Source: Streptomyces albogriseolus (GTDB lineage Bacteria; Actinomycetota; Actinomycetes; Streptomycetales; Streptomycetaceae). From it: DNA of 64,000 bases. Below are positions 29,718-36,059 of the stretch, piece after piece. The stretch's first letter is position 1. The number at the start of each line of letters is the position of its first letter. The notes under the pieces are model-generated. The model was given only the letters and a program-made list of their open reading frames with translations. It was not told the origin of the DNA and did no database searches. Where the stretch lies: contig BMVA01000006.1 in the NCBI GenBank assembly GCA_014650475.1, positions 310,001 through 374,000 of the forward strand, given 5' to 3'. A program made the position numbers and the translations under genes.

Positions 29718-30994
29718 GAGCAATCACCTCTCTGACCTGGGGTTTCTAGCAAGGTCGTCTACGTTGACATGCTCTCGCGCACGTTGGCCAGTCTTTCCGA
29801 GATCTTTCCTGTCTGCCCCCGGCGAACTGCCGTCCATCGATAGCAAAGCCACCGGGCGGCGACGGTCTTCGGCACCACCAGTGCGATGCGGCCCGATGCT
29901 GGCAGATGGATAACATGGCCCGCGGGATTCGGTAGCGGCGAACCCAACGCTTGAAGGATTAGGACTGATCGACCCGGGGGAAAAGATGGCAGTCAGGTTC
30001 GACCTGCATATCGCCCGCCAGACATTGGACGAGGCGTTTAGGCAAGCGATGGAAGCAACTTCGCTACCAGAGGCGTGGCTGCACCTTTCGCGCTCACTGC
30101 GCCAGGAAGAAGCGCCACGCACTTACACCCCCGCGCTGGGTACCGCACTCCTCGCTCGAACACTCGACGAGACCGTTGACCCTCGCTCTATCAAGCAGCA
30201 GACACACAATGCTCGATCCTATTCGGCTCGAACCCTATGCCACCGCGTACTTGTACCCGCTTCCGTGGAACTCGGTTTCGACCTGCACACCGCAGGAAGG
30301 GAACCTTTCAACAACCAGCCCTTTTTCCGCTGCGACCATTGGGACGAGATACCCCGACCTGAAGCGGAAAAGGGGACGCATTTCGACAGGGTCGATAAGG
30401 CGCTGAGACTTCTCGATCGGCAAGACTCGCAGGAATGCAAGTTGGCACTTATGGCCTTCCTGAAAGTCTGCTCCGAGCATTCAGAGTACGACAAGAAGCC
30501 GAAATTCACTGCCCGCCATATGGCTGGCGTGCGCAAAAATTACGCGTGCGATCCCATCCCTATAGATGGCGGCCAAGCTCAGGTTTTCAGGGCGAGGGAC
30601 AAGTCCACGGGATCCGTGGTAGCCCTGAAGAAGCTCCGCACACCGCTAGAGCGCCGCGTCGCCAGAATGAGGCGGGAGATTGAAGTCGGACTATTCCTGA
30701 GCGGTCATCCTCATGCCATGCCCATTCTGGACCACGCGCCAGATCATAGCTGGTTCGTCATGCCGTATGCGCAGGGAACGGCCCTGGACTACCGCGATGA
30801 CCTACGGAACGACGACGCGCTGGCCCTTCTCCTGCAATCCGTATGTTCGGTCCTTGAGGTAGCACACGAAAAAGGCTATGTGCACCGTGACATCAAACCG
30901 GCCAACATTCTTCTGCTGGACGGCCGGTGGGTGGTTGCTGACTGGGGCATTGTTAGAGGTCATCTCATTTGGCTACCTCGGTAGGCTGTGGGGC

Positions 30995-31803
30995 GTGGTG
31001 GGGATCGTTGAGCGGCTGGTGCCGGACGAATTGTGGGAGTTGTTCCAGCGGGTGGTGCCGGAGGCGCCTTCGCGGCCTCAGGGCGGTGGCCGCCGTCGGC
31101 ATGGCGACCGTGAGGTGCTGGCCGCGATCGTGTTCGTGGCCACGTCGGGCTGCACGTGGCAGCAGTTGCCCGCTGCGTCGTTCGGTCCGTCGGGGGCGAC
31201 GGCTCACCGCCGTTTTGCCGAGTGGACGAAGGCCAGGGTGTGGGCCAAGCTCCACCGCCTGGTCCTCGATGAGCTGGGCTGCCGCGGCGAGTTGGACTGG
31301 TCCCGCTGCGCGATCGACTCGGTAAACATGCGGGCCCTGAAAAGGGGGACCTGACGGGCCCGAATCCTGTCGACCGGGGCAAGTACGGATCGAAGATCCA
31401 TTTGATCACTGAGCGGACGGGTCTGCCCCTGTCCGTCGGCATCTCGGGGGCGAACCTGCACGACAGCCAGGCATTGATCCCCTTGGTGAAGGGCATACCA
31501 CCAGTCCGCTCCCGCCGCGGGCGGCGGCGACGCAGGCCGGACAAGCTCCACGCAGACAAGGGCTACGACTACTCTCACCTGCGGCGATGGTTACGAGGGC
31601 GAGGCATCAAACACCGCATTGCCCGCAAAGGGATCGAGACCTCGCAGCGACTCGGCCGCCACCGCTGGACCATCGAGCGCACGATGTCCTGGCTCGCCGG
31701 CTGCCGCCGCCTTCATCGCCGTTATGAGCGCAAGGCCGAGCACTTTCTGGCCTTCACGAGCATCGCCTGCACCCTCATCTGTTATCGGCGGCTCGTCTGC
31801 TGA
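30995..31803 (+). CDS. IS5-family transposase made by -1 frameshift
   Basis: The first frame (GTG 30995 to stop at 31354) begins VVGIVERLVPDELWELFQRV and holds the first catalytic Asp (WSRCAIDSVN). The second frame continues with HADKGYDYSHLRRWLRGRGI (second Asp) and RHRWTIERTMSWLAGCRRLHRRY (Glu). They join at AAAAGGGGG (31340-31348): reading AAA then stepping back one base gives the usual family sequence KKGDLTGPNPVDRGKYGSK. This is programmed -1 frameshifting as in many IS5 elements, so the enzyme is probably active. Confidence 0.88.
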
Positions 31804-32137
31804 TATGGGTCTGCAGCAGTTTCATCGCCAGGTCGTGACCGTAGTGACTGGCCATGTCCATGGGGGTGTGGCCGTCTGGGGCTGCGAGCTCTGGATCAGC
31901 CCCGAAGGCCAGCAACACGGCCGTGGTGTGCACAGTCAACGGCTGTCCGCTCTGCAGGGACCCATCACCCTCAACGTCGATCGCGTGTGTCAGCAGCGTC
32001 ATATTGGCGCAGACCTCATCGGGATCGGAACCAGCTGCCAGCAACCGGGCCAGGGCCTCTGCATCCTCCTGCTCGACCGCTTGATGCGCGGGGGTCCAGT
32101 AGTCACTCATCACGGCATTCAATCGTCCCCACAGCAC
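31775..32137 (-). CDS. Ankyrin-repeat passenger protein inside the IS
   Basis: A 120-residue protein, GTG start (an ATG at 32110 is the alternative), lying entirely inside the IS ends. It contains two to three ankyrin repeats: WTPAHQAVEQEDAEALARLLAAGSDPDEVC, MTLLTHAIDVEG..., and VLLAFGADPELAAPDGHTPMDMASHYGHDLAMKLL. Its 3' end overlaps the transposase end. Ankyrin repeats bind proteins; a role in regulating transposition or in the host is unknown. Codon quality and intact repeats argue that it is a real gene, not a shadow. Confidence 0.75.
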   Translation of the reverse strand: MLWGRLNAVMSDYWTPAHQAVEQEDAEALARLLAAGSDPDEVCANMTLLTHAIDVEGDGSLQSGQPLTVHTTAVLLAFGADPELAAPDGHTPMDMASHYGHDLAMKLLQTHISRRAADNR

Positions 32138-32658
32138 GCCTGCCAGCGACTATCTACATCATCAGTCGCCAATTGAGATGACCTCTTAGGCGTCCCCGAG
32201 GGATGACGACCGACCCTCAGAGGACGAGGATGGGTGTAGCTTTGGGATCGGCTGGGTTTGCCGCCCCCGAACTGGAAGACGACGCTCACAGCGCAGGGCC
32301 GCAGGCCGACATATACAGCCTGGGCCAATTCGTCGGGTGGGCAATCACAGGAAAGCGCCCCCGCGCGAATATTCCCCTCCTACCGGAGAGCGGCGCATGG
32401 CGTGCGGTCGTAGAGACCGCCACGAGAGACGACCCCGCCATGCGGCCCGAGTCCGTCACCGAGTTCCTCGAAATGGTCACCCGCGAAACACAAGTTCCCA
32501 TTAGGTCGACTTCTGGTTCTCATGTTCCAGCAGCCGAGTAATCCTGCGGGCTGCGACCACGCGTTTACCCACTGAGCGGATGCCAGCCGTCGCGGCTGCC
32601 CGCGGATCGAGAGGGGCGCTGGGTTAGCAGGCAGCTCGCCTCACGCGCTGGCGGCTGG

Positions 32659-33390: not shown

Positions 33391-34339
33391 GGCCGCAGCG
33401 TAACGAGGTGTCCGCGCGTTCGTGGATAACGGAGCCCCAGCTCAGAGATGGCGTGCCCACACCCACGCCGAAGCGAGGAGTTCGTGCGCTGGGACCCGCG
33501 GTCCTTCGCCGAGCTGAAGGCCAGCTATTCCTCCCGATTCGTCCGCGGCAGCTCACCGCACGCGCGTCACGGTGACCACGGCATGCCTCGTCGTCCCCGC
33601 CAGCACCTCGACGAGCAGTCCGGACTCCGCCGCCGTGAACGACTCGCCCCCAGCCGCCCGACCTCGCGCGGCCGGAGCAACGGCCACCAGCGCCGCCGCG
33701 ACCTGCGCGGCCAGCTGCGCCCCGAGCCGCTGAGACAATGCAACACGGCCGTCAGGCAACCGCACCGCCAGCGCCCGCGGCCGACCCGCCGCCCCCGTGA
33801 ACCCCACCACCTCCGCGTCGATCGTCTCCGCGTGTCTGACCTTCTTCCACGACGACGACCGACCCGCCCGGTACGGCGACCGCCCCGACTTCGCCACCAC
33901 CCCCTCCGCACCGGAGCCGGTCAGCGTCTCGTACCAAACCCGGGCGACCTCCACGTCTTCCGTCGCCGACACTGCCTGAATTGGCGACCCCTCCGGCAGC
34001 CCGGCCACCATGTCCAGCATCAAGGCGCGCTGCTCCTCATACGGACGCCCCCTCACATCCCCGGTGGGCAACGACAAAACGTCCCACACGATGAGCAGCG
34101 CAGGTGCCGCGCCGCCAGCTCCCGCGACCGTGCAGGCGAGGAAGCCGCCCGAGCCTGAGCGGCCTCGAACGACACCCGCCCGCAACCACGACGACTGCCT
34201 CGCCGTCCAGGACGACACCAGGCGGCAGGGCCATCCCCGCCACGGCAAGATCCATCCAGGGCGTCGTCACGTCCCGACCCGACCGCGCTTGAAGTCGAAC
34301 CGTCTCAGGCAGCCGCCACAAAACTGTCCGGTGACCGTC

Positions 34340-35928
34340 CTTCTCCAGACTTCGGCATGTCTCACGAGACAATCCGCGCTCCGTTGTAGAACCGGGCTGG
34401 CTGGTCGCTTGACCCTGCCCAGGACGCTGCGTCGACGCTGAGGCGTCAGGGGTTGCTGACCCTGAAGCGGCGGAACATGTCCGGTATGAACTGGCGCATG
34501 AGGTCCCGGGCGGCATCAAGGTGCTTCAATTCGTCATGGCCGAAGCGGAACACCTCGTACCCCCTGAGCTTGAGGTCGCGGTCGGCGGCAACCATCTCCG
34601 CGTACTTGGCGGTGTCCGGGATGCGGCCGCGGTCGCGGGTGTAGTGCTGCGATCCGTCGACCTCCAGCACGACGCGCTGTCCGTGAGGCAGCAGCAGGAG
34701 AAAGTCCATGCGGGAGCGCAGCAACGCCTCAGGGCCGCGCTCTTGGACGGTCTTATGGTCCCAGTGCAGCCACACTTCAGGGAGGAGAGCCGGCACCTCG
34801 ACTGAGGGTTTGAGAATCTCGTGGTAGGCGATGTAGAGATTTCTCTGGCCATCCGAGTTCTTGGGCAGGCTCTTGAGGAGTCGTTGGTAAAGGTTTTTCC
34901 TGGCGTCGATCTCGCTGCTGAACTTGCGGGTGGTCTGCCACCAGGCATGCACATCACGCCAACGCAGCCCCTCGATGGGAATTTCCCAGTCGTAGACGAG
35001 GATGTCGTCCGGGTCCCCTCCGGCGATCTCGATGTCGTTGTCGACCGAGGACCGGAAACGGATGTCCGGTTTGGCGAGAGAGGCGAAAATTATGTTCTTC
35101 GGTCGCCGGTTGCCGTGCAGTCGCGTCGACACCATGGTGAACAGGGGATAGCCGCCGTCATCGCCGGTTAGTCTCAACTCGACCCCAGCAGGGCGGAGAT
35201 AACCGTTGACCGTGCTGACGGTTGCTCGCTGTAGGTCCTCGTCAAGGAGGACGTCCGCCGATACCAGGCCCTCCAGGAAGCGGGCAAACCTGGCGTCTCC
35301 AGCCTCGAACACACCGAGGTTCTCGAAAAGGACTTCTGCTGACCAGTCCCCGGGGTTGCGGAAGACGTGCCGCTCAATGCGGTCTCTCAGCGTCACCGGC
35401 CGCCTCCCATTCAGCAAGTCATCGATGGAGGGGCCCGGCTCCTCGGTGATCCAAAACCGGTCAAGTAGCCGGAGGAAAGGTGCGTGGTTCCGGGCGAGCT
35501 CCGACAGGTCGAGGGCTCGCGCCAGCTCACGGCGAGCCTTTTTGGGTATCTTTAAGGGAGCGTCCTCTTCCCACAGCAGGTCCTCCATTTGATAGCGGAC
35601 CGACGCACTCACATAGAAGTAGCTCTGTTCCAATACGCGTCGCGTGACCTGCGGCAGCTCGGCATCTGCTACCTGACTGAAGCTCAGCTCAATCCGCTCG
35701 CGCTTGCTACCGGCGTCCTCAGGGACCGGTGGCATGCCCAGTTGTTCGAGGGCCGGGGTCAGCTCGCGGTGCGTCAGGCTGCCAAGTCCAGCGACGACCT
35801 CGCCGACCAGTGTGCGCAGCGCCGAACGATCCCTGATATCGACCATTGGCAGATGGTCGCAGAAGCCGAAGGAATCCGGCAGTGGCACCTGGGCATGGGC
35901 GATGAGACACATTGAGGTGTCTGGAGAA
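34340..35928 (-). mobile_element. Small TIR-flanked unit carrying only an AbiJ-like nuclease gene
   Basis: The insertion splits the ligase KLDG motif. Flanks carry the direct repeat ACCGTC (34334-34339 and 35928-35933; 4-6 bases depending on how the border is drawn). The ends carry inverted TTCTCCAGAC (34341-34350) and GTCTGGAGAA (35919-35928), with weaker similarity continuing inward (ATGTCTCA / TGTGTCTCAT). Removing the unit and one repeat restores the ligase reading KLDGHRTVLW. No transposase is encoded; the only gene is the AbiJ-like protein. A non-autonomous transposon mobilised in trans is the simplest reading. Confidence 0.7.
34446..35912 (-). CDS. AbiJ-like protein with C-terminal PD-(D/E)XK-type nuclease domain
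   Basis: 488 residues from ATG 35912, which lies in the terminal repeat region; translation could also begin at the ligase start (36017), because the frames are continuous. Layout: N-terminal helical region (RSALRTLVGEVVAGLGSLTHREL), a middle segment resembling AbiJ N-terminal domain 3 (IERHVFRNPGDWSAEVLFENLGVF; FARFLEGLVSADV; GGYPLF), and a nuclease domain at about 410-485 with RSRMDFLLLLPHGQRVVLEVDGSQHY, the Asp and Glu spaced as in DUF559/Vsr-like enzymes. Abortive-infection defence is the likely role. The domain match is from memory and moderate. Confidence 0.6.
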   Translation of the reverse strand: MCLIAHAQVPLPDSFGFCDHLPMVDIRDRSALRTLVGEVVAGLGSLTHRELTPALEQLGMPPVPEDAGSKRERIELSFSQVADAELPQVTRRVLEQSYFYVSASVRYQMEDLLWEEDAPLKIPKKARRELARALDLSELARNHAPFLRLLDRFWITEEPGPSIDDLLNGRRPVTLRDRIERHVFRNPGDWSAEVLFENLGVFEAGDARFARFLEGLVSADVLLDEDLQRATVSTVNGYLRPAGVELRLTGDDGGYPLFTMVSTRLHGNRRPKNIIFASLAKPDIRFRSSVDNDIEIAGGDPDDILVYDWEIPIEGLRWRDVHAWWQTTRKFSSEIDARKNLYQRLLKSLPKNSDGQRNLYIAYHEILKPSVEVPALLPEVWLHWDHKTVQERGPEALLRSRMDFLLLLPHGQRVVLEVDGSQHYTRDRGRIPDTAKYAEMVAADRDLKLRGYEVFRFGHDELKHLDAARDLMRQFIPDMFRRFRVSNP

Positions 35929-36059
35929 CCGTCGAGCTTCACTTCATACCACCAGCGCGGCCCGGTCGGCAGTTGCGGCACCAGCTCGGCCAGGGCGACG
36001 TCGACAGGGAACTCCACCCCGCCACCCTCAAACGCCGCCCGGGCCGCCCGCGCGCCGGA

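Follow-up and report, generated by a model that had tools for sequence, protein, structure and literature searches.

The element considered here lies in a 64,000-nucleotide stretch of Streptomyces albogriseolus DNA (assembly GCA_014650475.1, contig BMVA01000006.1, positions 310,001 to 374,000 of the forward strand; hereafter the window, whose own numbering is used throughout). At this locus the gene of an ATP-dependent DNA ligase is split within the codons of its KxDG motif by a short unit carrying one cargo gene. The unit, its ends and cores, and the two parts of the ligase are located as follows.

34341..35928, minus strand: probable non-autonomous cassette of 1588 bp, running from A end to B end in the ligase sense; its end motif recurs elsewhere.
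35902..35928, minus strand: A end, TTCTCCAGAC-9 nucleotides (nt)-TGTCTCAT, on the ligase N-terminal side; exact pattern match, listed beside the A ends of 20 other complete units.
34341..34371, plus strand: B end, TTCTCCAGAC-7 nt-TGTCTCACGAGACA, near-palindrome TGTCTCAYGAGACA, on the C-terminal side of the ligase; matched at the DNA level by end-only loci of other genomes.
35929..35934, minus strand: left core (attL), CGACGG, within the ligase codons AAG CTC GAC GG (KLDG).
34335..34340, minus strand: right core (attR), GGACGG, with a first base unlike that of attL.
35929..36017, minus strand: N-terminal part of the ATP-dependent DNA ligase, from GTG 36017 to KLDG, in frame with the cargo open reading frame (ORF).
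33553..34340, minus strand: C-terminal ligase part, with PF01068 in 33553-34248 and a LigD-type C half in 34190-34339; a stop lies in frame across 33553-34338.

The sequence TTCTCCAGAC is found at 34341-34350 on the plus strand and at 35919-35928 on the minus strand, an inverted match of 10/10, and by eye the similarity of the ends is about 25 nt long if one 2-nt gap is allowed. The two ends are of different types, A and B, which are defined below. The initial annotation had described a 1.6-kb insertion with inverted ends whose removal restores the ligase motif, and this description holds: when the flanks are joined by script with a single core, removal of 34341-35928 plus one 6-nt core yields ...WWYEVKLDGHRTVLWRLPETVRLQARSG..., an uninterrupted ...WWYEVKLDGHRTVLW... 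in which KLDGHRTVLW is restored. It is also correct that the unit lacks a transposase. No transposase or recombinase was found by Pfam on the cargo ORF or by tblastn with the four proteins of the recombinase operon introduced below (best E 0.18), and the same tblastn gave no recombinase-gene remnant. The target repeat ACCGTC given at that stage stands in part. CCGTC does lie outside both ends, as CCGTCC (34335-34340) and CCGTCG (35929-35934), with 5 nt identical and the sixth different; the right-side ACCGTC borrows the last base of the end. Such an arrangement is not rare in a GC-rich window, which contains 752 perfect inverted 10-mer pairs spaced 0.5-3 kb apart, 15 of them also sharing a flanking 5-mer (the pair of the unit included, overlapping pairs counted separately). 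Because of these 15 comparable pairs the ends alone are weak evidence, and their significance rests on the comparison with other genomes.

In that comparison 55 occurrences of the pattern TTCTCCAGAC-N3-11-TGTCTCAT were counted, spread over 35 of 392 Streptomyces genomes including that of the window, and in an order-wide draw the pattern is present in 9/147 genomes (partly the same ones) from 2 of 5 genera; the reversed control gave 0 in both sets. The ends fall into two types, A, with a spacer mostly of 9 nt, and B, with a spacer of 7 nt followed mostly by GAGACA. In ligase-site units the A end faces the N-terminal part of the ligase and the B end its C-terminal part. Targets were classified for 52 of the 55 ends, those of genomes G254 (once) and G308 (twice) being left out and not re-fetched. 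An in-frame ligase motif, K-x-D-G or a slightly altered form, adjoins 46/52, with ligase support by tblastn (E<0.01) for 43 of these and the motif alone for three (loci L073, L115 and L137). The 46 ends do not equal 46 events, since several insertions are orthologous and one AAGTGGGACGG group is shared by 7 genomes. Three types of ligase are targeted, labelled here (the labels are our own) LigB (KWDG), LigC (KFDG or KLDG) and LigD (KLDG). In G007 a ligase-like sequence with 66% nt identity retains an uninterrupted site, with a stop just before the motif. Insertion is thus site-specific, and the KxDG codons of ligases are the commonest target among the units found and no accident of the window locus. 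An objection raised in the initial annotation, that the same ligase might flank the gene everywhere, falls away, since the insertions are spread over three types of ligase.

Several other loci were set aside or stand apart. An apparent 15.8-kb transposon in G149 was rejected, as it consists of two outward-reading B ends of one palindromic region, and three independent insertions in G486 were rejected in favour of one large duplication. Viral spread was likewise rejected: the four pattern matches in viral contigs lie in what by eye is AT-rich sequence and seem fortuitous, and no relative of the 630-amino-acid protein described below was confirmed in viral contigs. Locus L259 (4729-9093) of G405, from another family of the order, has an A-like and a B end, no ligase match and remnants of the fourth operon gene. 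In L258 (6649-6897) a unit lies in a LigD-type ligase, and its cargo shows weak matches to pieces of another ligase, perhaps a nested insertion.

A complete transposon with the same ends, the search for which had been suggested with the initial annotation, does exist. Six full-size copies with both ends were found, each with four adjacent genes between these ends: two in G175 (L071) and G355, the latter with an interrupted third gene, and four on plasmids (NBC_01023, NBC_00998, NBC_00455 and S. avidinii). From the A end the order is an integrase of ~490 amino acids, a 630-amino-acid protein, an integrase of ~700 amino acids, a protein of ~140 amino acids, an optional cargo and the B end. Gene 1 scores above the Pfam cut-off for Phage_integrase and gene 3 is a weak match; the presumed catalytic residues R, HxxR, H and Y are invariant in both integrase families (7 sequences each). 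Gene 2 (633 amino acids) matches no family, and gene 4 has a helix-turn-helix-like start and a coiled-coil-like end, its matches being weak and below cut-off. The NBC_01023 copy (plasmid NZ_CP108672.1, 8820 bp) lies inside a ligase KMDG and the G355 copy (21.6 kb) inside LigC. The G175 copy lies outside ligases, with cores AATGGG/AGTGGG. The copies of G175, NBC_00998, NBC_00455 and S. avidinii form a group (95-100%) that uses other targets, and a sister group (~63%) uses ligases. G492 has genes 3 and 4 (54-70%) behind a B end that is located within a LigC-type ligase. Thirteen more distant operons (L168-L180, 35-49%) hold genes 1-4 in the same order, gene 1 being partial in L172 and L180; no ligase match was found in the fetched stretches of these 13 loci, which by sequence appear to be a wider actinobacterial family. 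Two side observations concern these copies. Stretches of L238 (7434-14738), L239 (7441-16366) and L071 (1606-8854), where no ligase sequence was found, look like a second recurrent target of the family, its cores being AGTTGG except for those of G175 given above. NBC_00455 and NBC_01023 (L239 and L240), inserted at different targets, agree in their annotated cargo (MFS transporter, GntR, DUF6191) and have nearly identical B ends, as if cargo and B end had been exchanged.

The small units resemble these relatives from which the recombinase genes have been lost. The 17 complete units, of which four are orthologous, measure between 545 and 4628 bp (median 1458). G017 has a fusion of the gene 1 start (87-89% amino acid identity to G355) with the gene 4 end, G226 and G486 each retain the start of gene 1, and pieces of genes 1 and 4 remain in G478. 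Their cargo is diverse: seven of nine cargo proteins scanned pass the Pfam cut-off, as methyltransferase, LysE, SpoIIE phosphatase, TetR, thioesterase, MMPL and GPP34, TetR and thioesterase being carried together in one unit. One cassette, with a SpoIIE phosphatase, occupies a LigD site in G308 and a LigB site in G339, and these two copies are 89% identical from end to end; a LigC unit in G318 shows 82-83% identity to them in alignments of 1333-1454 bp. When 600-bp flanks were compared, G308 gave nothing better than E=0.3; G318 and G339 show weak ligase similarity (E 0.002), and G255 and G339, both LigB, are 70% identical over 392 bp. To judge from these alignments, movement is indicated most clearly by this cassette, which is present in each of the three types of ligase.

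The mode of movement is suggested by the 6-nt cores. These were compared in 16 ligase-site units, namely the 17 complete units with the four-member orthologous group taken as one, plus G355 and NBC_01023; three full-size equal-core copies outside ligases were left out. Left and right cores are equal in 5/16 and different in 11/16, and 11 of the 14 mismatches fall at third codon positions, which make up 2 of the 6 sites (binomial p=7e-4). The right core reads NGAYGG in 16/16, with CGATGG taken for the orthologous group. A plain target duplication, as the initial annotation had assumed, is therefore rejected, on account of the unequal cores and of the tyrosine recombinases that the full-size relatives encode. 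Of the copies it had asked for, units with the same ends in different flanks were found in other genomes. A DDE-type transposon or miniature inverted-repeat transposable element (MITE), with 10-bp terminal repeats cut by a transposase encoded elsewhere and a 5-bp duplication of GACGG, would fit the 5 identical nt around the window unit, the identical cores in five ligase units and those in 3 of 4 full-size copies outside ligases. It is nonetheless improbable: no DDE transposase is encoded by the full-size units with these ends, the cores are unequal in 11/16 ligase units, mostly at third positions of codons, the way distinct ligase genes differ from one another, and strict targeting of one codon motif is unusual for DDE elements.

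Inteins and introns typically insert at active-site codons of conserved enzymes, and the ends of the unit can pair, both of which would suit a spliced element (intein or group I/II intron) that sits in the ligase motif and still lets the ligase be produced. This explanation is the least probable of those considered. The ligase frame runs into a stop within at most 33 codons in 15 of the 16 units, and in the window it stays open for 494 codons and then also stops inside the unit, so an intein was rejected. An intron was rejected because no Rfam match at gathering scores was obtained from 4 sources with units of 4 genomes, including that of the window. Moreover, the orientation of the cargo is mixed among units, and some ligase remnants at units carry stops or frameshifts.

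The cargo of the window unit comprises the following features.

34446..35912, minus strand: cargo ORF, 488 amino acids from ATG 35912, encoding an AbiJ-NTD3 plus PD-(D/E)XK-type nuclease-like protein.
35043..35552, minus strand: AbiJ_NTD3 domain (PF18860), Pfam E=2.7e-33, 115.2 bits against a cut-off of 32.5.
34641..34712, minus strand: putative nuclease motif RMDF...EVDGxQHY (D403, E417 and D419 in the 488-amino-acid numbering), invariant in 15 aligned sequences except for x and Q.

The name AbiJ-like nuclease, under which this protein was first annotated, is apt for its AbiJ_NTD3 domain and its putative PD-(D/E)XK-like motif, in which R-M-D-F and E-V-D-G-x-x-H-Y are invariant across the 15 sequences (that of the window included). 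It does not make the protein an AbiJ proper, a candidate rejected because no HEPN domain was found by Pfam; AbiJ_NTD3 and a weak DUF559 match were the sole hits, the DUF559-type nuclease end falling below the Pfam cut-off (E=0.011). The AlphaFold model is of moderate quality (mean predicted local distance difference test score, pLDDT, 72.8, with residues 1-26 <50); Foldseek of this model against PDB gave no significant match (best E 0.51) and PADLOC gave E=0.065 at best. In excerpts of PMC3710099, fusions of AbiJ-NTD3 to nuclease domains are named as presumed defence proteins, and the cargo is probably, by its sequence, an anti-phage effector. These fusions join AbiJ-NTD3 to a restriction-endonuclease-fold domain (DUF2726) according to the same excerpts, whereas the nuclease-like end here is DUF559-like rather than DUF2726; their carriage on a mobile cassette is not mentioned in those parts of PMC3710099. 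The ligase frame continues open into the cargo as a single ORF (34446-36017, 523 amino acids), which is uncommon among the 16 ligase units, and the cargo could be translated as a fusion to ~30 ligase residues from GTG 36017.

Homologues of the cargo at E<=1e-60 occur in 17 of 295 genomes, that of the window counted. In L004 and L006, which have an exact A end, the homology to the window gene starts at TTCTCCAGAC of that end and the three upstream flanks differ, so the gene has adjoined an A end in at least three contexts; L012, L031 and L139 have a decayed A end in a flank common to them. The proposal that the gene moves as a single-gene, non-autonomous unit therefore gains from the ends shared with units elsewhere and with the full-size relatives; as to the abiJ gene itself, both ends accompany it in the window only.

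The interrupted ligase of the window is decayed as well, because its C-terminal part is not one open frame. Its loss is probably tolerable, since three other ligase genes with intact KxDG are present in the same genome. Elsewhere in the window another gene, which we take from its ORFs to be a Ser/Thr kinase, is apparently split at 29986-32541 (plus strand) by what is presumably an IS5-type transposase unit, with the kinase start at 29986-30984, transposase-like ORFs at 30878-31803 and a kinase-like remainder at 32203-32541.

Among the closest known systems are the strand-biased circularizing elements (SEs). As described in excerpts of PMC10214605, these have the order integrase, further protein, large integrase and small protein with a coiled coil at one end, imperfect inverted end repeats, a 6-nt core with the target core at attL and the donor core at attR, and few preferred sites. 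The full-size relatives match the SE module intA-tfp-intB-srap at the motif C end in order and type, by description; the window unit has none of these genes, although its imperfect inverted end repeats are of the 13-19 bp by which SEs are recognised. As for the core rule, by which the six nt of the target end at attL and the left six nt of the donor at attR (excerpts of PMC10214605), the 11 unequal ligase units differ in the expected way and the three full-size copies outside ligases have equal cores, with drift contributing. SEs are reported from Gammaproteobacteria only, and Tfp and Srap were not found elsewhere by PSI-BLAST (same excerpts), whereas the host here is Streptomyces. Because of this host range the unit was not filed as an SE, the likeness being one of architecture and core behaviour; the words ligase, Streptomyces, autonomous and MITE are absent from the main text of PMC10214605.

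GInt elements, as presented in excerpts of PMC5385486, are alike in a four-gene operon at one end, variable cargo, imperfect att repeats, staggered exchange of 6-7 nt and site-specific insertion, their sites being an ABC-transporter gene and ssb. They differ in phyla (Bacteroidetes, Firmicutes, Verrucomicrobia and Proteobacteria), in a cargo of 2.5-70 kb and in a poorly conserved 3' end, both ends of the Streptomyces units being well conserved; the Gin proteins were set beside ours by description. A distant homologue of the 630-amino-acid protein (25%) lies in a four-gene operon of Paraburkholderia pBPHYT01. The main text of PMC5385486 contains none of the words ligase, Streptomyces and Actinobacteria. 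Tn554 and its actinobacterial relatives share an ordinary and a large tyrosine recombinase, a small TnpC-like protein, a strict site and Streptomyces relatives (excerpts of PMC3414803, whose main text lacks the word ligase), and the 6-nt footprint of Tn554 (excerpts of PMC10214605) resembles the core here. Tn554 has TnpA, TnpB and TnpC only, whereas here an extra 630-amino-acid protein stands between the integrases and insertions are commonest at the KxDG codons of ligases; because of this extra large gene (three large and one small in the full-size relatives) the unit was not filed as Tn554. The RIT archetype has three recombinases of 315-410 amino acids, all with the catalytic tyrosine (excerpts of PMC10214605), against ~490, 630 and 700 here, the 630-amino-acid protein having no recognisable motif; since sizes and motif do not fit, the unit is not classed as a RIT element. 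Neither the ligase KxDG as a target nor single-gene derivatives of such elements are described among the open-access matches listed, as judged by titles and abstract starts.

Taken together, the window unit most probably descends from a site-specific, SE/GInt/Tn554-like tyrosine-recombinase transposon of Streptomyces, as a non-autonomous form with an internal deletion and a cargo gene. The DNA itself provides the shared ends, the recurrent target, the diversity of cargo, one cassette found in three types of ligase, full-size relatives that have these ends and, in some small units, remnants of recombinase genes; the circle, the copy-out/copy-in mode, mobilisation in trans and the role in defence are what we infer. 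In the proposed mechanism the recombinases would bind the inverted ends (TTCTCCAGAC/TGTCTCAT) flanking the 6-nt core, and the ends would be joined into a circle. The circle would insert at a matching target core, here mostly the x-D-G codons (NGAYGG) of an ATP-dependent DNA ligase, so that attL would be the core of the target and attR the one carried over from the previous donor site, as described for SEs. Units without recombinase genes would be moved in trans, and the AbiJ-NTD3/PD-(D/E)XK-type cargo may then be translated in frame from the captured ligase start. Since the SE model puts the donor core at attR, the right core GGACGG of the window may be the trace of a former insertion in a ligase whose GAC follows a codon with G in third place, e.g., KWDG; drift after insertion is also possible.

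A number of observations weigh against this reading. Circle or excision was not observed in this sequence-based analysis. Six of the 52 classified ends lie outside ligases (three in G175 and one each in G308, G104 and G128), the three G486 copies are one 5.3-kb duplication, and just 2 of the 6 full-size copies with both ends are in ligases (NBC_01023 and G355); NBC_00998 and NBC_00455 share another site, with equal cores AGTTGG, and S. avidinii has a third place, with equal cores GCACCG. A fifth plasmid, of NBC_00080 (59%), has the four genes yet only a B-like end, and no relation of the gene 2 product to tyrosine recombinases was detectable by PDB sequence search or by profile comparison with the integrase family. 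Left cores deviate from NGAYGG in 4/16, the right core is CGATCG in two of the four orthologous-group members, and of the later-found units G478 has equal cores and G486 unequal ones, with CGGCGG on the right; because of these deviations, drift explains part of the core differences. Finally, gene 2 at >=60% identity is present in 2/392 genomes (G175 and G355) and its closest relatives in the genome of the window are distant (31-33%), so many units may be relics.

It is also conceivable, if rather unlikely, that the window unit in particular is a dead relic, formed by a single capture of the abiJ gene between an A and a B end and not in circulation, the family being mobile now or formerly. A second abiJ unit with both ends was not found, L004, L006, L012, L031 and L139 having no recognisable B end; the assembly of the window genome has no close recombinase and the ligase is decayed. 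On the other side, both ends of the unit are well conserved, the cargo ORF is intact, and L004 and L006 are homologous to it from the A end onward although their flanks are different. As to origin, such a relic is compatible with the derivation from a tyrosine-recombinase transposon preferred here.

If the derivation holds, these units would be a vehicle by which single genes, defence genes included, could spread among Streptomyces chromosomes and plasmids without a transposase of their own. A broader proposition, for which the arguments seem to us evenly balanced, is that they form a cassette shuttle, integron-like but unrelated to integrons, in which four-gene tyrosine-recombinase elements of Streptomyces, with asymmetric conserved ends, move small cassettes of one or two genes in trans into the KxDG of several ATP-dependent DNA ligase families and the right core records the last ligase; on that proposition, held to the same degree, the cassettes would carry defence effectors, phosphatases, methyltransferases and transporters. 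The catalytic motif of accessory DNA ligases would be a recurrent target tied to a recombinase family, and the history of transposition would be readable from six nucleotides per insertion, which is a testable claim. Interrupted accessory ligases in Streptomyces may thus be cassette sites and not random pseudogenes.

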